Assembly: GCA_021789155.1 (NCBI GenBank)
Contig: JAJYJW010000004.1
Location: 1-47,296, forward strand
Length of the DNA stretch: 47,296 nucleotides
Origin: Microcaldota archaeon
Lineage (GTDB): Archaea; Micrarchaeota; Micrarchaeia; Micrarchaeales; CABMGC01
Direction: 5' to 3'
A program made the position numbers and the translations under genes. Of this stretch, positions 15,391 to 42,177 are shown piece by piece. Below the pieces are notes generated by a model that had not been told where the DNA came from, searched no databases, and saw nothing but the letters and a program-made list of their open reading frames with translations. How positions within the stretch are numbered: the stretch's first letter is position 1; each line of letters starts with the position of its first letter.

Positions 15391-15451
15391 GTAGTGATGA
15401 CAGAGGTAATCGCTGAGCCTCGGCTATGATGAGTGATAGGCGGTCTGATAT
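15391..15451 (+). ncRNA. C/D box sRNA (predicted 2'-O-methylation guide)
   Basis: All four boxes are perfect and correctly spaced. C is GTGATGA (15394-15400), followed by a 12-base guide CAGAGGTAATCG, then D' CTGA (15413-15416). After a 9-base spacer comes C' ATGATGA (15426-15432), a 12-base guide GTGATAGGCGGT and D CTGA (15445-15448). Flanks GTA and TAT can extend the kink-turn stem. Such RNAs bind L7Ae, Nop5 and fibrillarin and methylate the target base paired to the fifth guide base before D or D'. The start codon of the nuclease gene lies 18 bases after the D box. Confidence 0.85.
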
Positions 15452-15466
15452 TTTGGTGGAATTGTT

Positions 15467-16354
15467 ATGAATAGTGCTCTGATAAGGTTGAACAAGCGAG
15501 GAATACTCGCAACGGACATAGCAGAGCAATTCTGGTGCGAGCGCCAGATGGAATATGGGTATCTTTATGGAAAGGAAAGAACGCAGTATATGAAAACTGG
15601 TTCAAACATACACAAAAAACTTGAAGAAAAGGTGCGCGTGGAAGTTGATGCTACCCCTCTAAACTATGCCGACTTCTTATGTAAGGAATCATACGAGAAC
15701 TACATGTCCTTGCTCAGCCTAACGGAAAAAGGCGTCGGTAGGGAAATAAAGATTTATGGGTCTGTCAACGGATACAGGTTATCTGGGAAAATAGACGAAT
15801 TGAAAATGCTAGATGGGAAGACTACTGTTGTAGAGGTAAAAACCAAGGCTAGGAATGGAAGTTTGCGAAGCGGTTCGAGTTCCTCTGGAGTAAGCAACTC
15901 ATCGATGCGGAGGCACAAAGTGCAGTTGATGCTGTACAAGAAGATGCTAGACGATGTAAAATCTGGTGCGTATTCGTTTGATAATTTCAAGAAGATATAC
16001 GGAATAGAGAAAATGACGCTCACCGATCAGTTTACAAAACAGCTGCAAATGCTCAACATTGAAGAGAAGTTTATTAATCTTGATTCATCTTATGAACTAA
16101 TGTTTAATGAGCTGAAATTGCTTCCAGAGATAAGCAATGAAATGGAACTAAGGTATATCGATCAGCATAGCGGCGAAGTATTCAGTAGCACTACATTGAC
16201 TTACGACAAGGAGGAGATGGACAAGGATTTGGGTTTTGTCCTGGAATACTGGAACGGTGGCAGAGAAGCGCTACCTGTGCCTGAAAGCGAAAAATGGAAG
16301 TGTAACTTCTGCAGATTTTTCGGCAAAGAGTGCAAAGTGTGGTACAATGTTTGA
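15467..16354 (+). CDS. Exo5/Cas4-like Fe-S PD-(D/E)XK nuclease
   Basis: This 295-aa protein has a RecB-family nuclease core: SGKIDEL (D110), VVEVKTK (E123, K125) and the helix RRHKVQLMLYKK with Q153. One N-terminal Cys (C24 in FWCERQ) and three C-terminal Cys (C279, C282, C289) have the spacing that holds a 4Fe-4S cluster in Exo5 and Cas4. The probable role is single-strand DNA exonuclease activity in repair or replication. No cas genes or CRISPR array are present, so an Exo5-like housekeeping role is preferred. GGTGGAA precedes the ATG. It overlaps alaS by 8 bases. Confidence 0.85.
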   Translation: MNSALIRLNKRGILATDIAEQFWCERQMEYGYLYGKERTQYMKTGSNIHKKLEEKVRVEVDATPLNYADFLCKESYENYMSLLSLTEKGVGREIKIYGSVNGYRLSGKIDELKMLDGKTTVVEVKTKARNGSLRSGSSSSGVSNSSMRRHKVQLMLYKKMLDDVKSGAYSFDNFKKIYGIEKMTLTDQFTKQLQMLNIEEKFINLDSSYELMFNELKLLPEISNEMELRYIDQHSGEVFSSTTLTYDKEEMDKDLGFVLEYWNGGREALPVPESEKWKCNFCRFFGKECKVWYNV

Positions 16355-31805: not shown

Positions 31806-31926
31806 CGCCAGGATAGGGATTTGAACCCTAAATCCCGTAAGGGAACCGGTTTGCTTGTTTCGCATCATCTAATCAGCTCTTGAGATAACTCAAGACCGGC
31901 GCGTTACCAGATTCCGCCATCCTGGC
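31806..31926 (-). tRNA. tRNA-Ser (anticodon TGA) with intron
   Basis: The acceptor stem is GCCAGGA with TCCTGGC, and the discriminator G is typical of tRNA-Ser. The anticodon stem is CCGGT with ACCGG, loop CTTGAG plus A, giving TGA. A long variable arm (TCCC TTAC GGGA) and T arm TAGGG TTCAAAT CCCTA complete the fold. A 37-base intron (31852-31888) lies after position 37, the canonical archaeal site. Its first ten bases contain CTCAAG, complementary to the exon CTTGAG. Confidence 0.9.
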
Positions 31927-38706: not shown

Positions 38707-38716
38707 CTTTTTATAC
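38707..38716 (+). promoter_or_regulatory. TATA box for C/D box sRNA and histone gene
   Basis: CTTTTTATAC is centred about 26 bases before the C box at 38738. With usual archaeal spacing, transcription starts at the C box. Confidence 0.6.
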
Positions 38717-38734
38717 TTCTCTAAGCAAATAGTG

Positions 38735-38788
38735 TCAGTGATGACTAAATACCTCTGATTTGTGATGAGGATCTTGAGTGCTGATTTA
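38735..38788 (+). ncRNA. C/D box sRNA (predicted guide for tRNA-Leu(CAA) C34)
   Basis: The boxes are perfect: C GTGATGA (38738-38744), a 10-base guide CTAAATACCT, D' CTGA (38755-38758), a 3-base spacer, C' GTGATGA (38762-38768), a 12-base guide GGATCTTGAGTG and D CTGA (38781-38784). The second guide pairs over 11 bases with ACTCAAGATCC, the common anticodon loop and 3' stem of archaeal tRNA-Leu(CAA). The fifth base before D then faces C34. The histone ATG is only 5 bases after the D box. Confidence 0.88.
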
Positions 38789-38789
38789 T

Positions 38790-38996
38790 ATGGCAAGCAT
38801 ACCAAAAAACGCTATAAAAGAGCTTTTTTCGAAGAGCACCGGGCTAGCCATAACGGATGACGGTGCAGAGCTACTCGCAAACATGCTTGAAGAGGAAGCG
38901 AGGAAGATATCAAAGAGCGCTGTAGACAACGCGAAAAACGACGGAAGGAGGAAGATAACTAAGGATGACATAATACGCTGCTCATCGAAGGGATGA
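38790..38996 (+). CDS. Archaeal histone
   Basis: This 68-aa histone-fold protein forms dimers that wrap DNA. The pattern is IPKNAIKELFSKSTGLAITD (helix 1), then the long helix with LANMLEEEARKISKSAVDNA, the basic KNDGRRKITKDDI loop and a last short helix. The ATG at 38790 gives the standard length; a GTG at 38778 lies inside the sRNA and is rejected. Its mRNA leader would consist almost wholly of the C/D box RNA. The zinc protein gene follows after 3 bases. Confidence 0.93.
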   Translation: MASIPKNAIKELFSKSTGLAITDDGAELLANMLEEEARKISKSAVDNAKNDGRRKITKDDIIRCSSKG

Positions 38997-38999
38997 GCA

Positions 39000-39554
39000 A
39001 TGGGGAAACTTGCGGCTATTCACAGTTCAGATGGAAGATATTCTGCTGTTTCTTATGATGATCCTAGGTTCAAGACCATTATAGCAGAACCTACGAAGAA
39101 AGGGGCGCTCGTGTCGATGTTCGATGACAAAGGGGCACCAGTTGATCAGGCTTATTTTGAAAACAGGAAAGCGCTAGACGTGCTTGAGGAATACGCGAAG
39201 AACATGGGTTATTCTTTGGAGTTAATCGAAGGAGCTGCATATCAGCATGTGGCAGTATCTGCCCGATGCAGTAAATGCAAAGGCATTGTTGAGAGAGAAC
39301 TCGACTGCAAAGACCCTGCTAAAATAGACAGCATACCAGTAATACCGATTTATACCTGCAGGGAATGCGGGGCAAAGCATTTTTGCATAACCAAAGAGTA
39401 CATAACCAGGCTATCCGCTAGAAATGAGCCTTTATTCAGTAGCGAGGAGCTGAAGGAGAGGAACGAATCGCTTGATAAATTCGTATCAGAAATAGAGGAA
39501 TACGTAATAAGAATCTTCGCTTCCAAAAAGATTAACAGACTTGTATTTGAATGA
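39000..39554 (+). CDS. Zinc-binding protein downstream of histone, unknown
   Basis: This 184-aa protein has two cysteine sets: CSKC with LDC (C90, C93, C103) and CREC with HFC (C120, C123, C129). This suggests one or two zinc sites between an alpha/beta N-terminal half and a helical C-terminus. Co-transcription with histone and a PRC-barrel gene is likely from the 3-base and 15-base gaps. I do not recognise the family. A role in chromatin or transcription is suggested by context only. Confidence 0.75.
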   Translation: MGKLAAIHSSDGRYSAVSYDDPRFKTIIAEPTKKGALVSMFDDKGAPVDQAYFENRKALDVLEEYAKNMGYSLELIEGAAYQHVAVSARCSKCKGIVERELDCKDPAKIDSIPVIPIYTCRECGAKHFCITKEYITRLSARNEPLFSSEELKERNESLDKFVSEIEEYVIRIFASKKINRLVFE

Positions 39555-39569
39555 TACGGGGCGTTTTGC

Positions 39570-39812
39570 ATGGTAATGGACATATCGAAATTAAGAGGAA
39601 AGAAAATAATAACCACAGGGGGGAGAATTCTCGGCGATGTCAAGGAAGTTGTAATAGACGTAGATGCGAATGAGATATCGCATTTGCTAACGATAAAACT
39701 CGAGGATTTGGCAAAAACAGACAAGGTTAGGGAAGCGATAGCAAAGAACAGCATCCTTTACCAGAAAAGATTCAAAGGAATGGGAGAAACAGTAGTTGTT
39801 TCTGACAGTTAA
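39570..39812 (+). CDS. PRC-barrel domain protein
   Basis: This 80-aa protein has the PRC-barrel pattern: LRGKKIITTGGRILGDVKEV, VIDVDANEISHLLTI, and a final strand GETVVVSD. Stand-alone archaeal PRC-barrels of this size are common, and some have been linked to cell division (CdpB) in haloarchaea. Its role here is not known. ATG codons occur at residues 1 and 3. Confidence 0.88.
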   Translation: MVMDISKLRGKKIITTGGRILGDVKEVVIDVDANEISHLLTIKLEDLAKTDKVREAIAKNSILYQKRFKGMGETVVVSDS

Positions 39813-40646: not shown

Positions 40647-41423
40647 TCAATTACCTATTTTGTCTCTTAGTTCTTTAGACTTTTCGAAAGAGACGCTTAT
40701 CAGCTCTTCCAGCTCATTTTGCGTGAATGAACCCGAAAGACCCTTCTGCATGCTCCTTATGCTGTTTTCATCGTTTGAAATCGTAACCCTTGCAGACATA
40801 ACGCTTTCCTCGTTTCCTGTAGGGTCCAGAACTACTTTCCCCGCAAGCTTAGCGAATGTACATGAGGTTACTATTCCATTCAACTTTAGCTGCGTTGTCT
40901 CGCTCCTGTTCAGTTTCTCGTCTTCGTATTTTGGGATCTTCGTGTTGTTCAACGCAGCTACGGCAGCTATGTAGCTCGCATCGAAAAGATTCCCATCATA
41001 ATTGAGCACGTAAACATCTATGAATATAGACCATACCTTGTCCTTTTCTATGAACAATGATTTGAGGTCGATCATGTTCTGGGCGCGAATGCCTCTGTCT
41101 ACGACTCTTGCTAACTCTATTGCATCCTCGCCTGGAGGGCCAGGTTCGTAGTTCTTGCTTGCCAATGGGAGCAATTCCGCAGACACCATGAGATTGCCTT
41201 CATCAGGCTTGTCTTTCATTGGAGAATCTATGTCGGCTTTTATCCCCACAAGAACGGTCGTATTACCGAGTTTGACTCTTGCAGAGCCTTCTGCATTAGG
41301 TATCACTCCTTTCTCTATAGTTATCTCCCTGAAATCGAGCAAGCTCCTCCCGTCTTCCCTTGTGCCGTTCTCCATCAGCTCTAGAACGTAACTTCCTTTT
41401 ACTGCGTCTATTGTGCTTGCCAT
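40647..41423 (-). CDS. rrp42: Exosome subunit Rrp42
   Basis: This roughly 258-aa RNase PH-like protein pairs with Rrp41 in the hexameric archaeal exosome ring and is itself catalytically inactive. Family features are REDGRSLLDFREITIEKGVI, GNTTVLVGIKADI, VDRGIRAQNMID, VYVLNYDGNLFDASYIAAVA and the final strand VTISND. The ATG at 41423 is four bases after the Rrp41 stop region; a longer frame upstream overlaps rrp41 and is rejected. Confidence 0.95.
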   Translation of the reverse strand: MASTIDAVKGSYVLELMENGTREDGRSLLDFREITIEKGVIPNAEGSARVKLGNTTVLVGIKADIDSPMKDKPDEGNLMVSAELLPLASKNYEPGPPGEDAIELARVVDRGIRAQNMIDLKSLFIEKDKVWSIFIDVYVLNYDGNLFDASYIAAVAALNNTKIPKYEDEKLNRSETTQLKLNGIVTSCTFAKLAGKVVLDPTGNEESVMSARVTISNDENSIRSMQKGLSGSFTQNELEELISVSFEKSKELRDKIGN

Positions 41424-41427
41424 CCAA

Positions 41428-42177
41428 TCACTGTTTTCCTTCGTATTTAGCGGCGGAGGTTTCGTAAGGTGCTGAAAGCGCCCTGCGCTGCTCCGCAGAT
41501 ATGAACTTGCCCGCATTCTTTATGTATTCCATTCCCTTCGAGAATTGCTCTTTTGTAAGAGACCCGTCCATCTGAAGCAGAAGCACTTCGTTGCTCCTTG
41601 GTGCGATTGCTACCGGCATATCGGCATCGGAATAGTTGTCCTCTATCATATTCAGATCAAGTATTACGTCTTCGCCTACCTTTCCTACCGATACTGCATA
41701 AGGCAGGTCATACATCGGTATTCCCGAAGATGCCAATGCAACGCTAGCCGCAGTTATACCCGCAACTCTCGTGCCGCCGTCGCTTTGGAGTATTTCTATG
41801 AATATCTCTATTTCATTTCCAGGGAAGTAATCCAGCATTACTGCTTTTTCGAATACCTCTCTTGTTACTTTAGATATCTCTATTGCGCGCCTATTCTGGC
41901 CACTTCTCCCGTGTCCTTCTATAGACGAGAAAGGAGCCATGGAATACCTGCATTTTATCACTGCTTTATCCGGATCCTGCGTGTGCTTCGGCAACGCTTC
42001 CTTTGGTCCGAATACTGCAGCGAGCACTTTGTTATTGCCCCATTCCAAGTATGCTGAGCCCGCGGCGTTCTTCAGAACGTTCGCCTCTATCTTCAAAGGC
42101 CTAAGCTGATCGAACGCCCTTCCGTCGAGCCTTTTCCCTTCTTTTATAAGTTGTGGTTTTTCTCCTGATCCGCCCAT
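41428..42177 (-). CDS. rrp41: Exosome subunit Rrp41 (catalytic)
   Basis: This roughly 249-aa RNase PH-like subunit carries the phosphorolytic 3' exonuclease and tailing activity of the exosome. Key stretches are KRLDGRAFDQLRPLKIEANV, the basic RNA- and phosphate-binding region GRSGQNRRAIEIS, LQSDGGTRVAGITAASVAL and IEDNYSDADMPVAI with the acidic residues of the active site. The ATG at 42177 follows GTGAT and the Rrp4 stop by 5 bases. Confidence 0.96.
   Translation of the reverse strand: MGGSGEKPQLIKEGKRLDGRAFDQLRPLKIEANVLKNAAGSAYLEWGNNKVLAAVFGPKEALPKHTQDPDKAVIKCRYSMAPFSSIEGHGRSGQNRRAIEISKVTREVFEKAVMLDYFPGNEIEIFIEILQSDGGTRVAGITAASVALASSGIPMYDLPYAVSVGKVGEDVILDLNMIEDNYSDADMPVAIAPRSNEVLLLQMDGSLTKEQFSKGMEYIKNAGKFISAEQRRALSAPYETSAAKYEGKQ

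Follow-up and report, generated by a model that had tools for sequence, protein, structure and literature searches.

A C/D box guide sRNA as the predicted leader of a histone operon across an order of Micrarchaeota

In a Micrarchaeota metagenome-assembled genome, the start codon of a short histone gene lies directly behind what looks like a complete C/D box sRNA, which raises the question of whether a single RNA can act both as the leader of a histone mRNA and as a guide for RNA modification. We examined this locus in the 47,296-nt stretch of DNA that carries it (the window), in the remainder of its genome and in other archaea. Judged from sequence comparison, it is highly probable that the leader of this histone operon is a C/D guide sRNA whose transcript is used either as mRNA or as sRNA. 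A preliminary description of the locus had listed four perfect boxes, the last ending five bases before the histone ATG, and on direct reading both the coordinates and the distance were correct (Table 1).

Table 1. Coordinates of the candidate leader sRNA and of the histone operon in the window
Feature	Position	Strand	Remarks
TATA-like promoter element TTTTTATA	38708-38715	+	-30 to -23 from the C box; offset kept in 89 leaders
C box GTGATGA	38738-38744	+	Perfect; predicted transcription start at or beside its first base
D′ guide CTAAATACCT	38745-38754	+	10 nt; probably orphan
D′ box CTGA	38755-38758	+	Perfect; followed by a 3-nt spacer to the C′ box
C′ box GTGATGA	38762-38768	+	Perfect
D guide GGATCTTGAGTG	38769-38780	+	12 nt; pairs over 10 bp with the anticodon loop of tRNA-Leu(CAA); predicted N+5 at C34
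D box CTGA	38781-38784	+	Perfect; 5 nt to the histone ATG
Histone gene	38790-38996	+	68 aa; start codon 5 nt past the D box; PF00808
Protein of unknown family	39000-39554	+	184 aa; CxxC pairs; near the histone in 29/29 relatives examined
PRC-barrel protein	39570-39812	+	Third gene of the conserved unit; 27/29 relatives

The lengths of both guides and of the D′-C′ spacer are those of an archaeal C/D sRNA, and in relatives the D′ guide spans 8-13 nt and the spacer 3-12 nt, with the D guide at 12 nt. The full C-D′-C′-D set occurred twice in the window (at 15394 and 38738) and in none of 60 first-order Markov windows, and the pattern RTGATGAN{8,13}CTGA gave ten matches in the 796-kb genome, six of which form three tandem C/D′-C′/D pairs, versus three matches for the reversed-pattern control. 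The histone-leader element had no family match in Rfam at gathering score. Its anatomy and conservation support the assignment of the histone leader as a genuine C/D box sRNA. The C/D and C′/D′ motifs are of the k-turn type and end just ahead of the histone ATG, and k-turn folding of the leader is predicted from these boxes. Fibrillarin (7e-78), Nop5 (Nop 2e-52) and two L7Ae-family proteins are encoded in the genome, and the sRNP machinery therefore exists there. In the second family of the order (f2), the C′ box is often degenerate (TGAAGA, TGACGA or TGAGGA). The D′-C′ spacer of f2 leaders (e.g., L222-L255) is a small GC..GC stem, as in CTGA-GCAATTGC-TRTGATG, unlike that of the window's own family (f1), which is mostly 3 nt long.

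The other full match in the window, at 15394-15448, is a second perfect C/D sRNA (GTGATGA, CTGA, ATGATGA, CTGA). The ATG of an Exo5/Cas4-like nuclease gene (15467-16354) follows its end by 18 nt, and this sRNA therefore looks like an mRNA leader too. Its D guide pairs over 13 nt, G-U pairs included, with the genome's own 16S rRNA around C1311, which, matched by eye, we take to be E. coli C1402 in the decoding centre. The third tandem C/D pair (G000:C8:1267-1315, minus strand; loci L040/L041) has a D guide that pairs over 10 nt with the genome's own 23S rRNA around position 1914.

Under the N+5 rule, the fifth guide base counted from the D box faces the nucleotide to be methylated. The fifth base of the D guide (GATCTTGAGT) would therefore face the wobble C34 of tRNA-Leu(CAA), which is its predicted methylation site. 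The ten middle bases of this guide pair with 5′-ACTCAAGATC-3′, a stretch confined in this genome to the antisense strand of the sRNA and to a tRNA gene of contig C25 that reads as tRNA-Leu(CAA), with acceptor GCAGGGA/TCCCTGC, anticodon loop CTCAAGA and a long variable arm. Across relatives, ACTCAAGAT followed by a T-arm-like GTTCRA, a tRNA-Leu-like context, was present in 91 of 96, and in 49 of 49 of the better assemblies. A scan of rRNA for D-guide targets gave none comparable to the tRNA match. These comparisons show the match between the D guide and tRNA-Leu(CAA), and 2′-O-methylation of C34 is the activity predicted from it. A guide for the wobble position of this tRNA has been reported in Pyrococcus (PMC7994747), and methylation of C34 was predicted in tRNA-Leu(CAA) of P. 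furiosus and went undetected in the tRNAs analysed (PMC7668247). The D′ guide is probably an orphan, since D′ guides differ among relatives and find no good rRNA target; the best 16S candidate, with nine pairs at position 825 and without two of the D′-proximal bases, was rejected.

In the tRNA-Leu(CAA) genes of the order (L077, at G000:C25 near 18291, and L256-L285), the T loop is frequently interrupted by a short, hairpin-like insert that looks like an intron in an uncommon position; this insert reads GTTCAAT-ACA-ATTGAAC in the genome under study and is absent from three genomes of genus g3 (L272-L274). ARAGORN misses the genome's own tRNA-Leu(CAA) gene. It also misses a 121-nt Rfam tRNA match in the window (31806-31926, minus strand), probably an intron-containing or long-arm tRNA.

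Conservation within the leader is concentrated on the D guide. In 89 leaders, the guide bases from -11 to -2 relative to the D box are invariant, save for -5 in two, whereas the D′ guide varies in sequence and length and its flanks vary as well, which argues for selection on the D guide. The exact pattern TGATGANGATCTTGAGTNCTGA was found in 106 of 301 genomes of the phylum, and its reversed control in none. A scan for the C′-guide-D pattern in 84,980 bacterial and archaeal species genomes returned at least 118 stretches, including Micrarchaeota, Thermococcus, marine thaumarchaeota (Nitrosopumilus), Thermoplasmata, Heimdallarchaeota and others. In Thermococcus, Nitrosopumilus, Thermoplasmata and Heimdallarchaeota (Asgard) contigs, the identical D-guide pattern lies away from histones. 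Among the 118 matches listed, 26 had a histone match in the fetched stretch, and among those listed and compared against organism names, a histone directly downstream of the sRNA was confined to Micrarchaeota. The occurrence of the guide pattern in so many archaeal groups therefore suggests that the guide is ancient and that its histone link is most simply explained as derived, within a single lineage.

The same observations bear on whether the conserved leader could be only a translation-initiation or DNA element that resembles a C/D sRNA by coincidence. The leader does directly precede the start codon, and TGAT of the D box might form a weak pairing with the tail of the 16S rRNA (...GATCACCTCAT). 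Such an element would, however, have to account for four boxes at sRNA spacing around a variable D′ guide and spacer and for a conserved match to a single tRNA anticodon loop, and it is contradicted by other archaea, in which this element occurs with no histone beside it; we consider this explanation extremely improbable.

The linkage itself was then assessed locus by locus. At 89 of 90 loci from families f1 and f2, the histone is immediately preceded by the guide and D box, f2 genomes with a degenerate C′ box included. The same holds for 14 of 14 additional genomes, 11 of which were picked for holding the sRNA pattern and so test the histone link and not the presence of the sRNA; these 14 include G070, whose histone was absent from the initial list of histone matches. 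For the order as a whole, the sRNA thus immediately precedes the histone at 103 of 104 loci, from two families and about 48 genera. The preliminary description had pointed to related genomes as the place to look for C/D boxes directly upstream of histone genes, and to loss of the boxes beside a kept ORF as the outcome that would speak against it; the boxes were found, and the element kept, at every locus but one. At this exception (L008, in G050), a TnpB-like sequence lies directly upstream of the histone and ACG replaces the start codon, which makes an insertion or a chimeric contig likely. The genomes do not count as independent events, and the order-wide linkage may stem from one ancestral fusion. 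Outgroup histones that lack the sRNA were considered as the ancestral state and dropped, since many of them resemble the other, nucleosomal paralogue equally well or better and are without the adjacent 184-aa gene.

The histone ORF scored 34.6 bits against PF00808 (cut-off, 21.4) and 43.6 against a stricter NCBIfam model, below its cut-off of 50, and its closest likenesses among solved structures are HmvA and HPhA. A second, more canonical histone on contig C17 has no such leader; of the histone-fold genes in the genome, a single one is linked to the sRNA. The window's upstream neighbour gene was near the histone in 0 of 29 loci, and the conserved unit runs from the promoter through the sRNA, the histone and the 184-aa protein to the PRC-barrel protein. 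The 184-aa CxxC protein, which had no match in Pfam, NCBIfam or PDB, is an uncharacterised partner of the histone operon. A gene for exosome subunit Rrp42 (40647-41516) lies close to the operon on the opposite strand.

Archaeal TATA boxes are centred about 26-27 nt before the transcription start. In N. equitans, the distance from TATA box to start is 26-27 nt (PMC3491384). With the first base of the C box as the anchor of the alignment, the 89 leaders shared a TATA box, with -30 to -24 mostly A/T, -29 to -25 almost purely A/T and no G or C at all from -28 to -26; they were also A-rich at -34 to -33 and A/T-rich at -11 to -4. With the TATA box locked in this position, the C box should mark the point where transcription begins; this start, common to sRNA and histone, is a prediction from spacing and not a mapped end. 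The preliminary description had placed +1 at the C box from the window's TATA box, and the same offset in 89 leaders agrees with this placement. Its further proposal of one promoter for both is strengthened by the A/T-only core. In f1, a separate histone promoter would have no room, because the positions 20-35 nt ahead of the ATG are occupied by the C′ box and the guide; one promoter should thus serve the sRNA and the histone.

How closely the two uses are packed differs between the families. In f1, the D box is 1-5 nt from the start codon in 47 of 53 loci, usually 4-5 nt, while gaps of 8-25 nt are commoner in f2. With a gap of 1-5 nt, a transcript should serve one use or the other but not both, unless it is cleaved after the D box. 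Shine-Dalgarno motifs were present in 15 of 28 long-gap leaders, which is not significant relative to shuffled sequences (mean, 9.9; maximum, 17). Pairing of the C- and D-box flanks into a terminal stem showed no excess over shuffles in f1 (2.15 versus 2.16) or f2 (1.72 versus 1.98), whereas in the sRNAs of other archaea it exceeded them (2.08 versus 1.72; standard deviation, 0.09); many copies elsewhere, for example in Nitrosopumilus, have such a stem, and none is detectable in this order.

These features fit a scheme in which the TATA box, about 27 nt upstream, would fix the start at the C box, so that the histone mRNA would begin with the sRNA as its initial ~50 nt. The 5′ end of the sRNA would then be produced by transcription initiation, and the histone would be read from the same start. 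The D guide would lead fibrillarin, Nop5 and L7Ae to 2′-O-methylate the wobble C34 of tRNA-Leu(CAA). Each transcript would have one of two fates, translation as histone mRNA or binding of the sRNP to its leader; in the latter case, the sRNP would protect the sRNA and the RNA downstream would be trimmed away; maturation of C/D sRNAs by sRNP protection and end trimming has been proposed (PMC7994747). On a short-gap leader, the assembled sRNP would cover or abut the histone start codon. In a variant of the scheme, cleavage just after the D box would free both the sRNA and a near-leaderless histone mRNA. The comparisons give good support to a transcript that is predicted to be bifunctional, as guide RNA and as mRNA leader, and we infer that both products are made and that a competition or cleavage step is involved.

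The preliminary description went further and suggested that binding of L7Ae, Nop5 and fibrillarin, or 3′ trimming, would compete with histone translation. Control of histone translation by L7Ae or sRNP binding or by trimming is a plausible hypothesis, and passive promoter sharing fits the data equally well: the sRNA would have settled once before the histone operon and would use its promoter, its 3′ end being trimmed from a fraction of the transcripts or left as a remnant of mRNA decay, with histone output unregulated. Such sharing accepts the anatomy set out above and denies only the regulatory consequence; lacking its own promoter, the sRNA would stay linked. The majority of archaeal C/D sRNAs are without promoters of their own, and their flanks can change without harm to maturation (PMC7994747); a single ancestral fusion is enough, and all the sequence data fit. 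We give passive sharing close to an even chance. According to PMC7994747, citing Tripp et al. 2017, 7% of C/D sRNA genes in six species overlap the 5′ end of an ORF, but the same source describes 5′ overlap as rare and as significantly lowering expression of the downstream gene. For that reason, order-wide retention with a gap of 1-5 nt in most of f1 is not obviously neutral.

A single lineage, genus g8, separates the guide from the leader. In both of its genomes (G007 and G031; loci L023 and L214), the guide has T, not G, at the N+5 position facing C34; its tRNA-Leu(CAA) keeps C34 (L278, L279), and the C/D boxes, promoter and histone linkage are all kept. The mismatch hints at a role of the leader beyond guiding, or at a decaying guide, and in this lineage the guide may have been lost and the leader kept for another reason. 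Retention of the boxes despite the mismatch would suit a leader that is mainly an L7Ae-bound k-turn switch repressing histone translation, with guiding secondary or lost, and Sulfolobus L7Ae does repress mRNAs through leader k-turns (PMC5539422). This precedent, invoked in the preliminary description, is real but concerns mainly the mRNA of l7ae itself. Both leaders would form a k-turn beside the start codon with L7Ae available; the histone leader differs from that of l7ae in being a complete bipartite guide sRNA, in its link to a histone gene and in being a candidate for repression. We regard a mainly regulatory switch as unlikely, given that no part of the leader is better conserved than the guide, which occurs in identical form in archaea without histone linkage.

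Returning to the leader as a guide sRNA, its nearest known counterpart is the Pyrococcus sRNA for C34 of tRNA-Leu(CAA), which (PMC7994747) has the same box anatomy, an anticodon-loop guide with N+5 on C34, and one active guide alongside an orphan; Thermococcus contigs also carry the D guide of the window's sRNA. The gene studied here differs in heading a histone operon, with a promoter locked to the C box. The 5′-overlapping sRNA/ORF pairs of PMC7994747 and of N. equitans (PMC3491384) are alike in having the sRNA at or over the ORF start, presumably on one transcript, with the start codon just past the D box; in contrast to those pairs, rare in the six species covered, one sRNA/gene pair is kept here in about 48 genera. 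The papers searched contained neither a histone-linked C/D sRNA nor a study on C/D sRNAs of Micrarchaeota. The order-wide fusion of one guide sRNA to one histone operon thus appears to be novel in the literature searched.

C/D sRNAs over gene starts are known, but they are described as rare and costly to the gene; here one such fusion has been retained, and ~85 nt accommodate its promoter, sRNA and start codon. It provides a predicted tRNA target in a group for which the literature searched held no C/D sRNA paper, and a natural test of whether guide RNAs can act as mRNA leaders and control a chromatin protein. An order-wide, obligately bifunctional RNA, which would be either histone mRNA or precursor of the tRNA-Leu(CAA) guide depending on sRNP assembly on the leader, is a possibility that we hold tentatively. 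If sRNP assembly does decide the fate of this RNA, the supply of histone would be coupled to sRNP capacity and to the decoding of UUG leucine codons.
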